This document shows, in pieces, positions 19,113-61,890 of a stretch of 64,000 nt of DNA. The notes under the pieces were generated by a model that saw only the letters and a list, made by a program, of their open reading frames with translations, made no database searches and was not told the origin of the DNA. The position numbers were made by a program, and so were the translations under genes. The DNA is taken from the NCBI RefSeq assembly GCF_900100945.1, contig NZ_FNCG01000001.1:434001-498000 (forward strand), in the 5' to 3' direction. Position 1 is the first letter of the stretch; each line of letters opens with the position of its first letter. The stretch comes from Mucilaginibacter gossypii. GTDB lineage: Bacteria > Bacteroidota > Bacteroidia > Sphingobacteriales > Sphingobacteriaceae.

Positions 19113-20990
19113 TTATTTTTTGCGTGTACTGATCATTACTACACCGTTTTTAGCTTTATCGCCATATTTTTTTGTGCCCTCGTCGCTTTTCATTACTGCT
19201 ATACTATCTATCGTATTTATATCCATTTTTTTAAAAGCATCCAATGTACTGGTTTTTCCATCGATAATTACCAACGGATCTTTCTTACCGTCGATCATGA
19301 TGTTCATTCCGTTAACCTTTAGTGCCTTAACGTTTGCTTTTTTACCATAACCGGTAACAACTACATCACCACCTCCTGCTACTGCGACATTATCATCTGA
19401 AGTTATACTATAGGAGAGCGCAACCGGTTTGGCTTTTACGCCGTTTACAGTTACTGTACTGCTACTGCTTGCACTTGTTGATCTGCTTAACCCTTTAACT
19501 ACAACAACGTTTTTAAGTCTTTTTACATCTACGTTTTTGTTATCAGGTACGATAGTTAAGGTGTTGACATTTACATTGTTGTTGTCATCGTCTAAAAGTA
19601 CATCGCCACTCGCATTGGTAGTGACAACTTTACTGATCCCCCTTGTTTTGGCTACTTCCTTTTCAAGCTCTTCTTTATTTGGTGCATCTTTGGTAATTAC
19701 GTAGACTACCTTAACAGGTTTGTCATCTTCAATTTTCGCAAATTTCCGAACTCTATCACCAGCAAGAATATACACATTGTCAATTTTCGTTGCATCGAGG
19801 TTTTTACCAGTTGATATCGCGCCATTCACCATAAGTATGAGCGAATCTTTTTTCTGATCTCCTGTTATTCTGTACTTTTTGTTGGTGTCGAGCTGGATTG
19901 CCAAAGGAGCTACGGCCACAAGCGGACTTAATGCAACTTTAGGCAGTACCACCGGAGAGGCAGGAATTGCAGCTTTAGAAGTTCTTGCTTTCGATACAGG
20001 TTTTGAAGCTTTCGCAGGTTTGGCATCCTGTTTAACAACCTCTTCGGGGTTGATGTTAATGATCCTGGCCAGGGGTTGTACCGCGGCGGCAAGGGTGATC
20101 CTCACCGGTTTGGCAAAGTCAGCTTTTGAAATGCTGAATACCAGCAACAGGGCCATAACGGCCGGCACTACAAAAACGTAGCGGGTGAGGTTAAGTTTCG
20201 ACGATCTTTTCGCGTTCATCATGATTATCCGTTTTTTTATAGTTGAAATATTGAAATGGTTTACAATGCTGGGTTGGGTATTATTAAAGCTCACATTAAC
20301 CAAACTATATTGGTAGGTTTTACTATCGATACCATTTTTAAGGATCTTGCGGTCGGTAATAAACTCGATGTTTTCCCTTACCGCCCGCTTAATAAGCCAG
20401 ATGCCGGGGTTAAACCAATAAAAGATGCTGCTTAGCTCAGCCAACAAAATATCGGCAGTATGCCACTGGTTTACGTGTACCTGCTCATGCAGCAGGATTG
20501 ATTTCAGATCGGCGGGTTCATGTTTGGCTGGGTTAACATAAATGCTTCGCCAAAAGGAAAACGGGGCGGCGTCTTTGTCCATCACCCTAACTAAATGGTC
20601 GCCTATGTATTGAGGTTTGGAGTTTTTATACAATCGTAAAAGGGAAAAAAGCTGCAAGGCCAGGCGGATGAGCAGCAAGCCGGCACCCGTCCAGAAAATA
20701 ACACTCAGCCAGTACCAATAATCAAATGTTTGAACCGGCTGGCTTACCAGTTGAGCCGGCGACTGCCAGTTAATGGCTATTTGCTCCATAGGTTTAGCCA
20801 GTTCTTCGTGCCGCTGCACAAAGGCCGAAAAATTGATTTGCGGGTAAATACTGGCAAACAGGATGGCTGCAAGTAAATAGATGCGGTTAAGCGTATAAAA
20901 GGTTAAGGGTCTTAACACCAGGTAATAGCCCGCGCAAAATAGTAACAAGGCTATGTTCACTTTCAGTAAAAAAACAAATGTTGCCGGCAT
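19113..20990 (-). CDS. BlaR1/MecR1-like M56 peptidase with TonB-plug-like C-terminus
   Basis: Membrane-embedded zinc peptidase of family M56, paired with a BlaI repressor as in beta-lactam sensors. Three N-terminal membrane segments precede LLHEQVHVNQWHTADI (the HExxH zinc site) and REN-EFITDRKIL, which supplies the third ligand. A fourth membrane segment (VVPAVMALLLVFSIS) leads to an Ala/Pro/Lys-rich linker and a roughly 300-residue outer tail with repeated beta-rich units. The last 65 residues (GKKDPLVIIDGKTSTLDAFK; KYGDKAKNGVVMISTRKK) look like the plug of a TonB receptor without a barrel. 625 residues in all. The start is 11 nt after the blaI stop, so they form one operon. What it senses is unknown; no penicillin-binding domain is present. 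Confidence 0.88.
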   Translation of the reverse strand: MPATFVFLLKVNIALLLFCAGYYLVLRPLTFYTLNRIYLLAAILFASIYPQINFSAFVQRHEELAKPMEQIAINWQSPAQLVSQPVQTFDYWYWLSVIFWTGAGLLLIRLALQLFSLLRLYKNSKPQYIGDHLVRVMDKDAAPFSFWRSIYVNPAKHEPADLKSILLHEQVHVNQWHTADILLAELSSIFYWFNPGIWLIKRAVRENIEFITDRKILKNGIDSKTYQYSLVNVSFNNTQPSIVNHFNISTIKKRIIMMNAKRSSKLNLTRYVFVVPAVMALLLVFSISKADFAKPVRITLAAAVQPLARIININPEEVVKQDAKPAKASKPVSKARTSKAAIPASPVVLPKVALSPLVAVAPLAIQLDTNKKYRITGDQKKDSLILMVNGAISTGKNLDATKIDNVYILAGDRVRKFAKIEDDKPVKVVYVITKDAPNKEELEKEVAKTRGISKVVTTNASGDVLLDDDNNNVNVNTLTIVPDNKNVDVKRLKNVVVVKGLSRSTSASSSSTVTVNGVKAKPVALSYSITSDDNVAVAGGGDVVVTGYGKKANVKALKVNGMNIMIDGKKDPLVIIDGKTSTLDAFKKMDINTIDSIAVMKSDEGTKKYGDKAKNGVVMISTRKK

Positions 20991-21001
20991 GGTTGTAAGG
21001 T

Positions 21002-21358
21002 TTATTGTTTTTCAATGAGTTTAATGATCTCTTTCAGGTCGGTAGCGCTGATCTTCTTTTCGTTGGCGAAAAACGTTACCAGGTCTTTATAGGAGTTTTG
21101 AAAATAGTCGCTCACAAAACCACTCATAAAGCGCTTTTTATATTCTTCTTCCTGTATCACGGGCAGGTAACGGAACGAGTTGCCCATTTTTTCGCTTTTT
21201 AAAAATCCTTTGCGCTCCAGGTTCTTTATGGTAGAGGCAAGGGTAGTGTAAGGGGGCTTTGGTTCGGCCAGTTGATCTAAAAAATCTTTGATAAATCCCG
21301 GGCCCGATTGCCACACAGCCTGCATTGCTTCTTCCTCTTGTTGCGATAGTTTTTCCAT
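21002..21358 (-). CDS. BlaI/MecI/CopY-family transcriptional repressor
   Basis: Dimeric winged-helix repressor of 118 residues. The DNA-binding domain is at 1-75 (EEEAMQAVWQSGPGFIKDFL; TTLASTIKNLERKGFL with the recognition helix) and the dimerisation helices follow; the YLPVIQEEEYKKRFMSGFV stretch is the usual cleavage-prone junction. It is the first gene of a two-gene operon with the M56 peptidase, which probably cleaves or triggers cleavage of the repressor. Two inverted repeats directly upstream of its start fit autoregulation. Confidence 0.93.
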   Translation of the reverse strand: MEKLSQQEEEAMQAVWQSGPGFIKDFLDQLAEPKPPYTTLASTIKNLERKGFLKSEKMGNSFRYLPVIQEEEYKKRFMSGFVSDYFQNSYKDLVTFFANEKKISATDLKEIIKLIEKQ

Positions 21359-21399: not shown

Positions 21400-22037
21400 T
21401 AAAGCAAATTTATTTTCAGTTTTTAACAGAATTTAACGTTTGGTTTAAAAGGTTAGTGGTTGGAGATCAGAGGTTAGGGGGATATAGGATTGAAGAGAGG
21501 TAACTATTTTCCTTTACCTATTCACTACTCACCCTCAAATCTGCGTTAGTGATAGGAGCGGATACCGGCCTGTGACTAAGGCCTGTGCAGTATGAGCGGA
21601 TAGCCCGGGCCTGAGGCAACGCCCGTAATTTGAACCATGATTTTAGGATTAATAGATTGGCAGGATGCTGCTGAGTCAGGATTAAACAAATTTCAGACGA
21701 CTTATTGAGCTTTCTTGTCATTCTATAAATTCTTTAATTCTAAGTAATTTCCGTTCAGATAAATAACCAATCAATATTTGATATTACTGCGACGATAACT
21801 AAAGCCCACCAACCCATCAGTAAAACTAATGCAAGCTTGCTAACAGCCTAACCTCTAATCTCCAGCCTCTGATCTCTAATTTCCGCCAACCATATCTTAA
21901 CATAAATCTATCAATCACCAAATCAACCCTGTTAATTTCATAAAAACCACAACAAAAGTTGATCTTAACTTAATATAAAAACAAACAAAAAACTATATTT
22001 AAGCCTGAGTTGATTGTAAAACATAAATACGCGCTTA
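21400..22037. repeat. Intergenic region with inverted GATTAGAGGTT-type repeats
   Basis: No credible gene. A cluster of AGAGGTTAG/GGAGATCAG units lies at 21449-21480 and the inverse complement (CCTAACCTCTAATCTCC and following units) at 21846-21885, so the two ends could pair over a 370 bp loop. The same unit family occurs at 24825-24936 and 61859-61890. The right part, from 21900, is AT-rich and should hold the promoter of the amine oxidase gene. Confidence 0.6.
21541..21625. repeat. GC-rich repeat-like block with GAGCGGATA direct repeats
   Basis: Inside an otherwise AT-rich gap lies a GC-rich block with two copies of GAGCGGATA (near 21557 and 21595) and short hairpins such as GGCCT-7 nt-AGGCC. 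It breaks the local base composition sharply. It resembles scattered intergenic blocks I know from other Bacteroidota genomes, but only this copy is in the window. Confidence 0.45.
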
Positions 22038-23621
22038 TTGAAAACTATTACCCGCAGAGACTTTTTAAGTAAAGGTGCTATGCTGGCTGGCGGAGCTTAT
22101 CCCGCTATGCTTGCCCTTGGCTTACTTAAATCCGCACCCGCGCATGCTTTTAACCTGGAAGGCAGCGGCAAAGGCAAACACATTATTATTTTAGGAGCCG
22201 GTTTGGCCGGTATGACCTGTGCCTATGAGCTTGGCAAGCTTGGATATCAATGTACCATTTTGGAGGCGCGGCAACGTACAGGCGGTCGCTGTTTTAGTAT
22301 TCGTAATGGAAGTACCAATACCGAAATTGATAAACCTACGGCTACAGCCCGTTTTGATGAAGGTCAATATTTTAATGCAGGCCCATCGCGCATTCCCCAC
22401 AATCATGAGCTCACGTTGCATTACTGCAAAGAGTTGGGTGTACCCATCCAGGTTTATAACAATGTAAACGAGGGCGCCTATTATTTTGCCGAAGGTAAGG
22501 GGCCTTTATCTAATAAAAAAATAAAGGTACGGGAGGTGCATAACGACATTCGCGGTTATATGACCGAAATGCTTGCCAAAAGCATTGACCACGGCGGTCT
22601 CGATAGCAGCTTTACCAAAGAGGATGGCGAAAAGATCATCGAATACCTGCAAGCCGAAGGTGGACTGGATATTGATAAATTGTACAAAGCGTCTGCTCGC
22701 CGCGGCTATACGGAATCACCTGGTGCAGGCGATAAGCCTGGCAAAATCGCTGATCCGCATAAACTGGCCGATCTGCTGCATTCGGGTTTGATGGATCCAG
22801 ATTTCTATAATGTGGCCGAATATACCTATGAACTGCAGATGACCATGTTTCAGGCCGTGGGCGGTATGGATCAGATAGCTAAAGCGATGGAGAAGAAAGT
22901 AGCGCCATCCATAAAAATGGGAGCGGAGGTTACTGCCATTAATAATGTGCCTGATGGCGTTAAGATAACTTATAAAGACGCTACAGGGGAGCATATCTTA
23001 AATGGCGACCTGTGTATCTGTACCATTCCGTTACCCGTGCTAAGCAATATCAGCAATAATTTTAGCGGCGATGTTAGCCGGGCTATTGACTATATCAGCT
23101 ATAACCAGACCGGAAAGATAGGCCTGCAGTTTAAGCGCCGCTTTTGGGAGGAGGATGAGCATATTTACGGTGGTATAACGCACACTAACAATGATTTAAC
23201 GCAAATATTTTACCCGAGTTATGATTATTTGGGAAAAAAGGGTATCTTGATTGGATATTATAACTTTAACGAAAAAGCGCAAAAGATCGGCGCTTTAGGC
23301 TACGCCGAAAGGGAGAAGTTCGCGCTTGAAAAAGGCAAGCTGATCCACCCGCAGTATGACAAGGAGTTTGAAAACTCGTTTTCGGTAAGCTGGCATAAAA
23401 CCAAATATAATTTAGGCGGATGGGCGGTGTATACTACCGAAACCCGCAAAACACAATACCCGGTACTGTTAAAGCCCGATAAGCAGGTATATTTTGCAGG
23501 CGAGCATTTGACATACCTGAATGCCTGGATGGCCGGTGCCTTTGAATCGGCCAGGAGCACGGTTGCCGCCGTACATGCAAGGGTTACAGGCCAGCGTACC
23601 CAATATCCGGCTCAAAAATAA
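22038..23621 (+). CDS. Tat-exported flavin amine oxidase
   Basis: FAD-dependent oxidase of the monoamine/L-amino acid oxidase family, 527 residues. The start is TTG; no in-frame ATG lies nearby and the twin-arginine signal TRRDFLSKGAMLAGG begins at residue 4, which fixes the start. FAD-binding Rossmann motif: IIILGAGLAGMTCAYELGKL, then EARQRTGGRC. The C-terminal FAD contact is VYFAGEHLTYLNAWMAGAFE. Tat export fits a cofactor-loaded enzyme folded in the cytoplasm. It lies 32 nt before an aminotransferase that also carries a twin-arginine-like leader, so the pair likely works on the same amino compound in the periplasm. Substrate unknown. Confidence 0.9.
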   Translation: MKTITRRDFLSKGAMLAGGAYPAMLALGLLKSAPAHAFNLEGSGKGKHIIILGAGLAGMTCAYELGKLGYQCTILEARQRTGGRCFSIRNGSTNTEIDKPTATARFDEGQYFNAGPSRIPHNHELTLHYCKELGVPIQVYNNVNEGAYYFAEGKGPLSNKKIKVREVHNDIRGYMTEMLAKSIDHGGLDSSFTKEDGEKIIEYLQAEGGLDIDKLYKASARRGYTESPGAGDKPGKIADPHKLADLLHSGLMDPDFYNVAEYTYELQMTMFQAVGGMDQIAKAMEKKVAPSIKMGAEVTAINNVPDGVKITYKDATGEHILNGDLCICTIPLPVLSNISNNFSGDVSRAIDYISYNQTGKIGLQFKRRFWEEDEHIYGGITHTNNDLTQIFYPSYDYLGKKGILIGYYNFNEKAQKIGALGYAEREKFALEKGKLIHPQYDKEFENSFSVSWHKTKYNLGGWAVYTTETRKTQYPVLLKPDKQVYFAGEHLTYLNAWMAGAFESARSTVAAVHARVTGQRTQYPAQK

Positions 23622-23653: not shown

Positions 23654-24820
23654 ATGTCAAGTACAATTAACCGCAGAAACTGGATTAAATCCAGCGCATT
23701 TATGGCCGGAGGACTGGCCTTTTTTTCAGGAACAATTGGTAAGCTGGCAGCCATGCCGGCCCGCGTATTTAAATTACAAAGCCGGGTATTAACCGATCAG
23801 GAAGCCGTTACCAATGCCGGCTTTGAATTGAAAGCAAGATTATTAGCCAATGAGAACCCTTTTGGCCCGTCGGCAGCAGCAAAAAAAGCTATCCAGGATG
23901 CTATTGATAAAAGTTATCAGTATCCTTTCATGACCCAGGGCACCCTGTACAATAAAATAGCCCAGTATGAGGGTATAAACTACAACAACATTTTAATGGA
24001 GTCTGGCTCATCGCCATTGTTGTTGGCAGCGGCGATCCATTACAGTAAAGGCGGTAAAAGCATCATTACCGGTGATCCATCGTATGATGATCTGCCTTCA
24101 CATGCGCAACAATTGGAAGGCAAATGGATCAAGGTGCCCCTAACTGCAGACTATAAACTTGATCTTGACGCGATGGAGGCAAAGGTTGATGATAATACCG
24201 GTCTGGTATATGTCTGCAATCCCAACAACCCAACTGCAACTATATTGGATACTGCTAAATTGAAAGCCTTTTGTGAACGCGTATCTAAAAAAACAACAGT
24301 ATTTGTTGACGAGGCTTATATCGATTACCTGCCCGATCCACAAGCCAGCACCATGATCAGCACCGTGAAAGCCGGAAGCAATGTTATTGTTGCCCGTACC
24401 TTTTCAAAATTGTATGGTTTTGCCGGTTTGCGTTGCGGTTATGTGATTGCCCAGCCCGATACTATTAAAACTTTATCGATGTATACTACAGGCTTTTCGC
24501 TTGCAGCAACTACTATTGCAGGCGCAATTGCGGCGTATCGCGAAGAGGAATTTTTAAAGGATGCACTCCAAAAAACGCTGGCCTCAAAAGAATACCTGTA
24601 TTCGGTACTTAAAAAAGAGGGTTATGAATATATCCCTTCATCGGCAAACTTTGTGATGTTCCCGCTTAAAATGGACGGTAAAAAGTTTGTAAGCGAAATG
24701 ATGAAACGCGGCGTAGGTGTCCGCAACTGGCAATTTAACGGCAAAGACTGGTGCCGAGTAAGCATTGGCCGTATGGACGAAATGGAAGCCTTTGCCGATG
24801 CGTTTAAACAGTTATCTTAA
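23654..24820 (+). CDS. Exported class I/II aminotransferase (HisC-like)
   Basis: PLP-dependent fold-type I aminotransferase, 388 residues, nearest to histidinol-phosphate aminotransferases. Motifs: LANENPFGPS (substrate arm), YVCNPNNPTA, FVDEAYIDYLPD and ARTFSKLYGFAGLRCGY, where the lysine of SKLYG forms the Schiff base. Unlike normal HisC it carries an N-terminal leader with paired arginines, NRRNWIKSSAFMAGGLAFFS, that looks like a Tat signal. It is not in a his operon; it follows a Tat-dependent amine oxidase and precedes a secreted Hint protein. A periplasmic PLP enzyme is unusual, and the true substrate is not known. Confidence 0.88.
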   Translation: MSSTINRRNWIKSSAFMAGGLAFFSGTIGKLAAMPARVFKLQSRVLTDQEAVTNAGFELKARLLANENPFGPSAAAKKAIQDAIDKSYQYPFMTQGTLYNKIAQYEGINYNNILMESGSSPLLLAAAIHYSKGGKSIITGDPSYDDLPSHAQQLEGKWIKVPLTADYKLDLDAMEAKVDDNTGLVYVCNPNNPTATILDTAKLKAFCERVSKKTTVFVDEAYIDYLPDPQASTMISTVKAGSNVIVARTFSKLYGFAGLRCGYVIAQPDTIKTLSMYTTGFSLAATTIAGAIAAYREEEFLKDALQKTLASKEYLYSVLKKEGYEYIPSSANFVMFPLKMDGKKFVSEMMKRGVGVRNWQFNGKDWCRVSIGRMDEMEAFADAFKQLS

Positions 24821-24824
24821 GTGG

Positions 24825-24936
24825 TGATTAGAGGTTGGAGATTAGAGGTTAGGAGTCGTTTTTATCCATTAGCCTATAATCTCTGATCTCCAATCTTTAA
24901 CACAACCAACCTCTAATCTCTAACCTCCAATCTCTA
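24825..24936. repeat. Inverted GATTAGAGGTT / AACCTCTAATC repeat
   Basis: Tandem units GATTAGAGGTTGGAGATTAG at the left and CCAACCTCTAATCTCTAACC at the right form an imperfect inverted pair over the whole 118 bp gap between the aminotransferase and Hint genes. Same unit family as at 21449, 21846 and 61859. It can form a long hairpin and may cap the upstream transcript. Confidence 0.7.
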
Positions 24937-24938
24937 AA

Positions 24939-25931
24939 ATGAGAAACCTCACATTAACACTACTACTAAGTTCATCACTTTATTTTGCCCAGGCGCAAAC
25001 TGTAAACCCTCGTCCGCTTACTATGGATGAGTATAAAAAGGCACAATCATTCACCATTGTTAATTTGGATAATGATACCTACATTAAATTTGAAAATACC
25101 TATGTGCTTGACCGGTACGAAAGCCGTAAACCCTATTTTATAACCGGGGCCGACGGGTTAAAAAAACGTATCGACCTGTATAAACTGGTTGCCAAAGAAG
25201 GTATGCAAGAAATAGGCCTCATGGTATTTTATACCAACGAAAAAGGCAAGCTTTACAAAGCCCTTGTGCCCGATTTTACTGCCGATGCCAAGGTTTGGGA
25301 GCAGTATTTCCAGGATATTGATAATATCAATAAAGTGGAGCAAAACTTTATCCTGAAGTTGTCGTACGTGCTGTCAAAGGAAGTCAGCTTTCAACAATAT
25401 AAGGTGCTTAACGCCGGCAAGGATTTGAAGGAAGAGGCCGCTACCTATGGCAATGACATCTGTTTCCCGGGCGAAGAACTGGTTACCATGGCCAATGGCG
25501 ATAAAAAGATGCTTAAAGCTGTGAAAAGTGGCGATGAGGTAATAACGGTTGATCCGTTGACTAAAAAAAGTACCGCTGTAAAGGTAAAAGAACTTACCAT
25601 ACATGAGGCCAAAAACTACGCTTTAACGCAACTGGTACTGGTATCGGCCCAAACAAAAAACACAGCCGAAGGCAGGCAGGTAAAACTGAATAGCAAAGTG
25701 TTACAGGCAACTCCTAATCACCCTATGTTAACCAAACAGGGTAACATTAAAATTGGAGCGGTAGCAACCGGCCAGGAAGTACTTTGCCTGAACGAGCAAA
25801 CCGGCAAATATGAAACTTTCACCGTATTGCAAAAAACAGAACACGCGGGCGGTGTACAAAGAGTATATAACATTGTAGCCGATGGCGGCAGTACCCTGCT
25901 CATGAACGGTGTAATGGTGATGCAGAAGTAA
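24939..25931 (+). CDS. Secreted protein with C-terminal Hint (Hedgehog/intein) domain
   Basis: 330 residues. Signal peptide 1-19 (YFAQAQ), an unrecognised 155-residue N-terminal domain, then a Hint domain starting at C175 (CFPGEELVTMANGDKKML). Hint blocks: C175 nucleophile, TPNHPM at 258-263 with H261 (block B), and VYNIVADGGSTLLMNGVMVM at 310-329 (blocks F/G). The final block has NGVMVMQ where inteins have NG-x-x-V-HN, so the terminal His-Asn is missing and there is no C-extein. That is the Hedgehog-type arrangement: acyl shift at the cysteine, then release or transfer of the N-terminal domain. Upstream are the exported oxidase and aminotransferase genes in the same direction. Hint call firm; autoprocessing inferred. 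Confidence 0.85.
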   Translation: MRNLTLTLLLSSSLYFAQAQTVNPRPLTMDEYKKAQSFTIVNLDNDTYIKFENTYVLDRYESRKPYFITGADGLKKRIDLYKLVAKEGMQEIGLMVFYTNEKGKLYKALVPDFTADAKVWEQYFQDIDNINKVEQNFILKLSYVLSKEVSFQQYKVLNAGKDLKEEAATYGNDICFPGEELVTMANGDKKMLKAVKSGDEVITVDPLTKKSTAVKVKELTIHEAKNYALTQLVLVSAQTKNTAEGRQVKLNSKVLQATPNHPMLTKQGNIKIGAVATGQEVLCLNEQTGKYETFTVLQKTEHAGGVQRVYNIVADGGSTLLMNGVMVMQK

Positions 25932-26175: not shown

Positions 26176-26670
26176 ATGACAATTATGCTTGTTAACAAAA
26201 AATTATTAGTTACGCTAGGTCTGCTATCCATAGTAGTGTTTGGCGCTATGACTACAAGTAAACCGCAGGACGAAGGTTTTAAAAACCTTAAAGTTTTGCC
26301 TAAAAACATTTCGGGCGAGAACCTGCACAAGGTTATGGAAGAGTGGGAGCATTCATTAGGTGTACATTGCAACTTTTGCCATGCCCGTAATGAAGAAACT
26401 AAAAAGATGGATTGGGCAAGCGATGCCAAGCCTGAAAAAGCAATGGCGCGCGATATGTATAAAATGATGAACAAAATTAACCAGAAGTATTTTCATGCAA
26501 AAAAGGATTCTTTAGGCATGATCATGCAAAGTGGTGTTAACTGCAATACCTGTCACCGTGGTACAGCTCATCCAGAGGTTATGGTACCTGACGGAAAAGG
26601 TCCGGGTGGTCAGCCTGGTCCGCCGTCTGCTGGTCCTGCTCCGGGCAGCCCTGCGCCAACTAAGCCATAA
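26176..26670 (+). CDS. Diheme c-type cytochrome (reaction-centre cytochrome-like)
   Basis: Exported electron carrier, 164 residues. An N-terminal hydrophobic leader (LLVTLGLLSIVVFGAM) is followed by two CxxCH haem sites, HCNFCHARN near residue 64 and NCNTCHRGTAHPE near residue 130, in the spacing of the CytoC_RC-like family found in non-phototrophic bacteria. Methionines between the sites (KAMARDMYKMMNKIN) can be axial ligands. The tail is a Gly/Pro-rich linker (GGQPGPPSAGPAPGSPAP), likely a flexible tether. An alternative ATG lies three codons downstream. A strong terminator follows, so it is probably monocistronic. Redox partner unknown. Confidence 0.88.
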   Translation: MTIMLVNKKLLVTLGLLSIVVFGAMTTSKPQDEGFKNLKVLPKNISGENLHKVMEEWEHSLGVHCNFCHARNEETKKMDWASDAKPEKAMARDMYKMMNKINQKYFHAKKDSLGMIMQSGVNCNTCHRGTAHPEVMVPDGKGPGGQPGPPSAGPAPGSPAPTKP

Positions 26671-61858: not shown

Positions 61859-61890
61859 TTAGAGATTAGAGGTCGGAGATTAGAGATTAG
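61859..61890 (+). repeat. GAGATTAGAGGTC repeat units after rpoN
   Basis: AGAGATTAGAGGTCGGAGAT and a further GAGATTAG unit, the same family as at 21449, 21846 and 24825; here without its inverted partner. Confidence 0.6.

Follow-up and report, generated by a model that had tools for sequence, protein, structure and literature searches.

Hint domains are known to finish their reactions by asparagine cyclisation, by acyl transfer to cholesterol or by plain cleavage. A gene of Mucilaginibacter gossypii, located in the 64,000-nucleotide stretch of contig NZ_FNCG01000001.1 that was analysed here (the window), raises the question of how an exported Hint protein may finish when it carries no terminal His-Asn and ends in a lysine. 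We propose, with roughly an even chance of being right, that it is a self-processing Hint protein belonging to a three-gene exported cassette of Bacteroidota, in which the last residue, Lys330, resolves the thioester made by Cys175. A literature search over open-licence texts returned no description of this Hint protein family or of the three-gene set.

Layout and predicted fold of the Hint protein

The gene is present as a single copy in the M. gossypii genome. Its features are as follows.

24939-25931, plus strand: gene of the secreted Hint protein; ATG start, 330 amino acids plus stop
24939-24995, plus strand: signal peptide, residues 1-19; boundary presumed from the conserved Gln20
24996-25460, plus strand: N-terminal domain (N-domain), residues 20-174 (155 amino acids), without clear family or fold match
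25461-25928, plus strand: Hint domain, residues 175-330, from Pfam PF01079 and fold alignment
25461-25463, plus strand: Cys175, presumed thioester nucleophile of block A; invariant, aligned with Hedgehog residue 258 and intein residue 1
25710-25721, plus strand: Thr258 to His261, the block-B TxxH; both residues in 148/148 homologues
25923-25925, plus strand: Gln329, variable, at the place of the intein terminal Asn
25926-25928, plus strand: Lys330, last residue, invariant, at the +1 place of the extein nucleophile

An earlier note on this DNA had described a signal peptide, a new 155-residue domain and a Hint domain that starts at Cys175 and contains TPNHPM (residues 258-263). This observation stands, the leader, the lack of a Pfam match for the middle part and the Hint match all being confirmed. 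A hydrophobic leader precedes residue 20 in 146/146 of the homologues that bear the N-domain, as judged by a simple hydrophobicity test rather than a signal-peptide predictor, and residue 20, the presumed mature N-terminus, is Gln in 141 of them. A loose lipobox pattern is also matched by 5 of the 146.

The Hint profile PF01079 is the best Pfam match of the window protein (E 9.2e-7; 29.1 bits, slightly below the cut-off of 29.7 bits), and it is matched at E<=0.01 by all 24 family members that were scanned, with a best value of 1.8e-11. The NCBIfam profile intein_Nterm reaches 21.6 bits on the same protein, against a cut-off of 24.5. An AlphaFold model of the whole protein, built with 24 homologues as alignment, has a pLDDT of 77 and a pTM of 0.46. 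Its Hint part was compared with the PDB by Foldseek and VIA-align, Z differences below 1 being treated as ties. The VIA-align scores are Z 20.2 for Hedgehog 6tyy (rmsd 1.6 over 137 residues), 20.0 for both Hedgehog 1at0 and the Npu DnaB intein, 19.9 for a Clostridium bacterial intein-like (BIL) domain (2lwy) and 18-19 for BIL2 of Tetrahymena (6y75, 6tmm). The predicted fold thus matches Hedgehog, several inteins and BIL domains about equally well, and the likeness to Hedgehog foreseen in the earlier note is shared with the other two groups.

The register of these alignments bears on the end of the protein. VIA-align places residues 175 to 330 of the model on Hedgehog residues 258 to 401. Residue 329 falls on the final residue (440) of the Mtu RecA intein chains, while residue 330 falls on 441 in 5i0a and on 155 in Ssp DnaB. 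In the model, Lys330 would then occupy the position of the first C-extein residue, and the protein would run one residue past the intein end. The earlier note had reported neither a terminal His-Asn nor an extein in the C-terminal sequence NGVMVMQK; the first half of that statement is upheld, and the second gives way to a single residue, Lys330, at the first C-extein place. The invariance of this lysine and the two exported amino-acid enzymes encoded next to the gene had both been missed.

The N-domain was modelled separately from 58 sequences, with a pLDDT of 88 and a pTM of 0.84. Residues 20-174 of the window protein have no Pfam match at E<=0.1, and the 58 N-domains gave a few scattered Pfam matches, the best at E 0.0013, the Hedge signalling domain not being among them. 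Against the PDB, the best match of the sequence profile has an E of 0.55 and that of the model in Foldseek an E of 0.25 (3shp, probability 0.77), with none at <=0.001. In VIA-align, the highest Z is 4.8 (sialidase BT_1020 and a polo box), followed by the Ivy lysozyme inhibitor at 4.1. All these Z values are in a range common for the tool; a fold assignment was dropped, and the fold is not claimed to be new. Among 345 genomes of the phylum, no N-domain was found apart from a Hint partner: the 7 matches all sit in open frames of 325-364 amino acids that the Hint profile also finds.

Invariant residues and their loss without the N-domain

Homologues were collected from several sources. The window's own family supplied 301 genomes, 37 of which have a match, comprising 35 full-length proteins, one broken copy (G177) and one weak match of 28% (G143). 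Genome contigs supplied 52 loci, in which the nearest named relatives of the window protein are Mucilaginibacter and the genera include Mucilaginibacter, Pedobacter, Hymenobacter, Rufibacter, Chitinophaga, Niastella, Flavitalea, Terrimonas and Puia, among others. A search of the phylum yielded matches in 13 of 395 genomes, and a second family (f10) matches in 132 of 222, of which 81 are full length. A qualifying open reading frame was present at 173 loci, and merging of identical frames left 148 homologues. Several loci were set aside, namely L026 (end out of frame), L030 (in-frame TAA; sequence identical to L070), L185 (split), L081 (fragment) and two other Hint proteins, L091 and L092; L082 is likewise a fragment. 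The 148 do not include five of the full-length matches from the window's own family (G001, G044, G054, G065 and G091). Two proteins, L131 and L188, are counted in the 148 although they have no N-domain, and the remaining 146 have it. Identity to the window protein reaches down to 21% among the N-domain-bearing homologues, and the 148 form 41 clusters at 70% identity. The in-frame TAA of the L030/L070 sequence, a Mucilaginibacter copy from a metagenome-assembled genome, lies inside the Hint domain.

Only five columns of the 148 homologues have zero entropy: C175, T258, H261, P262 and K330. Since Cys175 and His261 are both found in 148/148, the Hint assignment is far above chance. F176 and G268 (147/148 each) and His222 (143/148) are near-invariant; we take His222, by counting residues rather than from a printed alignment, to be the probable equivalent of Hedgehog Asp46/303. 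Lys330 is present in all 148 proteins and all 41 clusters, with gap-free spacing from residue 327 to 330 throughout, and around it residues 318-326 and 328-329 are free to vary. The protein stops exactly at Lys330 in 128 cases and carries 1-6 extra residues in the other 20. Residue 329 is Q in 66, D in 62, E in 8, N in 3, T, K and V in 2 each, and A, R and G in 1 each. A C-terminal His-Asn occurs in 0/148, and none has His at 328. The residue before Cys175 is I or F in 65 homologues each, Y in 15, V in 2 and H in 1, and it is Gly in 0/148. A fixed role for Cys283 was rejected, cysteine being found there in only 64/148.

The second family also contains short Hint-like proteins of about 200 amino acids that have lost the N-domain. 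Of 49 such members, 28 were fetched (the L030 fragment not being counted). Homologues without the cysteine, which the earlier note had named as speaking against self-processing, are absent among N-domain-bearing proteins and are found in this short group: the aligned Cys is absent in 26 of the 28, 8 of which have a Cys two columns later. These 26 keep Lys330 in 4 cases and the block-B His in 24. L131 and L188, which have about 25 residues ahead of the Cys, retain all three of these residues. The trio of Cys, His and Lys is found with every N-domain (146/146) and has mostly decayed in the proteins that have lost this domain.

Most of the short loci shown also lie near a Tat-type aminotransferase. 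At L128 and L131, both of the second family, a membrane transporter-like protein is encoded between the Tat-type aminotransferase and the short secreted Hint gene; L131 still has the aligned Cys, which L128 has lost. Among six control Hint proteins of the phylum, four keep a VHN ending (L215, L217, L218 and L092) and two do not (L091 and L216). PT-HINT (PF07591), sought as a control family, was found in 0 of 61 genomes.

Exported amino-acid enzymes encoded upstream

In the window, the Hint gene is preceded on the same strand by two genes for enzymes with Tat-type motifs.

22038-23621, plus strand: Tat-type flavin enzyme of the L-amino-acid-oxidase kind (LAAO); TTG start, TRRDFL near the N-terminus
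23654-24820, plus strand: Tat-type PLP aminotransferase of the HisC/phenylalanine aminotransferase kind (AT); NRRNWIKS near the N-terminus

LAAO matches the Pfam Amino_oxidase profile at 3.9e-53, and its best solved relative is the L-amino acid oxidase of Rhodococcus, 2jae (348.6 bits over residues 39-517). Aligned stretches of the two proteins are RIPHNH/RIPQSH, YYNFNE/YYSSGK and AWMAGA/AWQHGA, whose Arg, Tyr and Trp we presume to be substrate-binding residues. With full-length similarity to L-amino acid oxidase, LAAO is predicted to have that activity; it differs from the Rhodococcus enzyme by its Tat-type leader and its tie to the Hint protein. AT matches Aminotran_1_2 at 1.9e-49, with 4r2n as its best solved relative (154.1 bits).

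The order LAAO, AT, Hint seen in the window recurs in nearly every locus of L031-L080 (L074 being cut before LAAO), while the usual order in the second family is AT, LAAO, Hint. LAAO and/or AT lies upstream on the same strand in 106/106 N-domain loci whose flank measures 1.2 kb or more. Where the flank is at least 4 kb, AT is present in 41/41 loci, one of which (L062, where AT overlaps an extended open reading frame) was counted from the locus reading, and LAAO in 39/41. By a loose pattern, the Tat-type RRx motif is found in 40/42 LAAO and 65/67 AT proteins, the misses being two split open reading frames together with L085 and L087.

The association also holds across whole genomes. In the window's family, LAAO orthologues (E<=1e-100) are present in 35 of 301 genomes, which are exactly the 35 with a full-length Hint protein. 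In the second family, they are present (E<=1e-100) in 70 of 222 genomes, 69 of which have the N-domain protein. Across both families, 104 of the 35 + 70 LAAO genomes also hold the Hint protein; in the other, G843, the Hint protein was not found and the genome is incomplete (71%). Conversely, 12 of the 81 second-family genomes with the N-domain protein have no LAAO, so LAAO is not essential. They comprise 11 genomes of genus g53 and the incomplete G887, whose Hint gene is close to a contig end; the two loci with at least 4 kb of flank and no LAAO, L132 and L138, belong to g53. In all 11 g53 proteins, Lys330 is followed by a single additional residue (N or H), and a tail is found in 9 of the 135 other N-domain proteins, a set of which only part was checked for LAAO. 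The correlation between LAAO absence and the tail is weak, as g53 is one genus and may reflect a single event. No LAAO orthologue was found in the G177 genome, which holds the broken Hint copy, nor in the locus of the Pedobacter hartonius Hint fragment (L081), as if the cassette were decaying together.

The surroundings show several features of their own. The gap between AT and the Hint gene (24826-24932) holds a 25-nt inverted repeat with arms at 24826-24850 and 24908-24932 that are 92% complementary. It is of a dispersed type: GAGGTTRGAGATTAGAGGTT has 39 matches in the genome at <=2 mismatches, against 13 for a reversed control. Further copies lie before the cassette (21458-21475 and 21850-21867) and at 61871-61888. 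Downstream, 26176-26670 encodes a small c-type cytochrome (NF033196, 129 bits), which is found behind the cassette in part of the Mucilaginibacter loci only; upstream, on the minus strand, 19113-21358 encodes a BlaR1/BlaI-type regulator pair that recurs in a few Mucilaginibacter loci. Scans for promoters and terminators did not score above shuffled sequence, and Rfam gave no match in the 64-kb window.

How the thioester may be resolved

Altogether, these findings lead to a model in which the Hint protein would first be exported by Sec. Cys175 would then attack the peptide bond after residue 174 in an N-S acyl shift aided by Thr258 and His261, a step suggested by the fold together with the invariant Cys and the TxxH. 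The N-domain would thereby be held on the Hint domain as a thioester, with no Asn step. We regard thioester formation and separation of the N-domain as probable, and we infer the cutting itself from the invariance of these residues. A role of Lys330 in resolving the thioester is suggested by its being an invariant C-terminal residue among variable neighbours, at the place of the second nucleophile of inteins. Most simply, Lys330 would take the acyl group, giving an isopeptide between residue 174 and the lysine side chain; alternatively, it would activate water or an amine from outside. We suggest only tentatively that Lys330 itself is the acceptor. LAAO and AT, which would work in the same compartment, might supply the amine, use it up or have the processed product as their substrate.

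A precedent for lysine attack comes from BIL2 of Tetrahymena, for which an isopeptide bond with a lysine side-chain amine is reported in PMC8616854. Several points weigh against the model. The invariant Cys and His could instead serve the fold or a metal site, and a lysine at +1 might act as a general base, interact with a carboxylate or fix the C-terminus in place. The bulky residue before Cys175 would slow the attack of any nucleophile, and the 26 short proteins without the aligned Cys retain Lys in 4 cases and the block-B His in 24.

Plain hydrolysis, in which water would free the N-domain and Lys330 would lower the pKa of the water or steady the active site, is possible but somewhat unlikely. 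It accounts for the invariant Cys, His and Lys, and according to PMC4031507 and PMC7664689 cleavage is the main known activity of Hint domains that lack the Asn step; however, it gives the adjoining amino-acid enzymes no role and makes no obvious demand for Lys alone at +1 in 148/148. We would give a similar, rather low likelihood to a Hedgehog-like transfer to an outside amine, for example one made or spared by LAAO and AT, with Lys330 as the base and a C-terminal tag as the product. The place of Hedgehog among the best structural matches agrees with such a transfer, as do the Tat-type motifs of two enzymes that by family act on amino acids, yet an adduct-recognition region is absent, only 0-6 residues following the Hint domain, the residue before Cys175 is bulky, and genus g53 does without LAAO. 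If the acceptor were instead a lipid alcohol, a tag that the earlier note had allowed for, the fold and the active-site Cys would fit. This reading is highly improbable, as the family lacks a region for sterol or adduct recognition, Gly never stands at -1, and the conserved gene set holds no lipid gene; Hedgehog-type lipid tagging was set aside on these grounds. Two observations together favour an amine over a lipid: Lys330 never varies, and two exported amino-acid enzymes are encoded alongside.

Two further explanations were weighed. Cyclisation of Gln or Asp at 329 might cut off Lys330, as in inteins with C-terminal Gln and Asp, on which papers are cited in PMC4031507. Q, D, E or N stands at 329 in 139/148 homologues, but T, K, V, A, R or G stands there in 9, the penultimate His is found in none, and with Lys as the sole C-extein residue there would be little to release; such an event is very unlikely, and Gln/Asn cyclisation as an essential step was rejected on account of the nine. 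A non-cleaving Hint fold acting as a scaffold or binding domain is also unlikely, if less so. The persistence of the short group suggests that the fold can serve without the Cys, and the Tat-type aminotransferase near most of the short loci shown would suit a scaffold as well; yet it is precisely this group that has lost the N-domain, and the proteins that kept the N-domain kept the trio without exception.

Resolution by Lys330 itself, if it occurs, may represent a third finishing mode, based on Cys, His and Lys where inteins use Cys, His and Asn and Hedgehog a Cys with an external lipid. The thioester between the N-domain and Cys175 would undergo aminolysis by the +1 Lys, forming an isopeptide; we consider this possible, though more doubtful than not. 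Were the bond between residues 329 and 330 then to open, next to the Q or D found at 329 in 128/148 homologues, the N-domain would end in a side-chain-joined lysine with a free amino-acid head. This reading taken as a whole is likewise rather doubtful. L-amino acid oxidases and aminotransferases recognise groups of this kind, and the adjoining enzymes would modify the one borne by the N-domain. Action of the oxidase on the processed product, considered alone, is quite improbable and much less likely than aminolysis by Lys; genus g53, with no oxidase and a one-residue tail after Lys330, is in line with the reading, though this one genus may stand for a single event.

Comparison with known Hint systems helps to place the family. 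Hedgehog proteins are likewise secreted, have a separate N-terminal domain, start their Hint (Hog; PF01079; 1at0, 6tyy) domain with CF and combine an N-terminal Cys with a TxxH, and the modelled folds agree closely (Z 20, rmsd 1.6-1.7, 137 residues). The Hedgehog end sequence has no His-Asn, as in the present protein, and Hedgehog has a Gly before the Cys. The Hint protein differs in having no Gly at -1, a Lys after the place of Hedgehog residue 400, an unrelated N-domain and amino-acid enzymes as neighbours. It also has no counterpart of the sterol or adduct recognition region that follows the Hint domain in Hedgehog, according to PMC2362128.

BIL2 of the Tetrahymena BUBL1 locus (6y75, 6tmm) shares the Hint fold, with Z 18-19 to the model; unlike the present family, it is eukaryotic, its acceptor lysine sits in the following ubiquitin-like domain, and it naturally ends in Asn, 6y75 and 6tmm being C1A-N143A variants. 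We know of no oxidase or aminotransferase partner of BIL2. The suitably placed invariant Lys resembles the BUBL-type arrangement, and the reaction can be suggested by analogy only. BIL domains of types A and B are, like the Hint protein, bacterial Hint domains without the usual +1 Cys, Ser or Thr (2lwy, Z 19.9). Type A ends in His-Asn, as stated in PMC4031507, whereas this ending is found in 0/148 here. Type B only cleaves and has no block G similarity; in the Hint protein, block G is partly recognisable as NGVMV-like, followed by x-(Q/D)-K. Class 1 inteins (Mtu RecA, Ssp and Npu DnaB) share the fold, Cys1 and the block-B TxxH, and they differ in that the Hint protein has no His-Asn, no +1 Cys, Ser or Thr and practically no C-extein.

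In our judgement, the family is real and conserved and falls outside what defines Hog proteins, inteins and type A BILs. We regard it as a further form of Hint autoprocessing, marked by a Lys that never varies at +1 and by its tie to an exported amino-acid enzyme cassette. If the proposed mechanism is right, it would add a further chemical solution on the Hint fold, one in which a +1 Lys is as invariant as the catalytic Cys. It would also mean that a protein can be joined to an amine outside the cytoplasm without ATP, a possible ligation tool. For the organisms that carry the cassette, the tie between the Hint protein and the exported enzymes offers a handle on the purpose of a periplasmic oxidase and aminotransferase.
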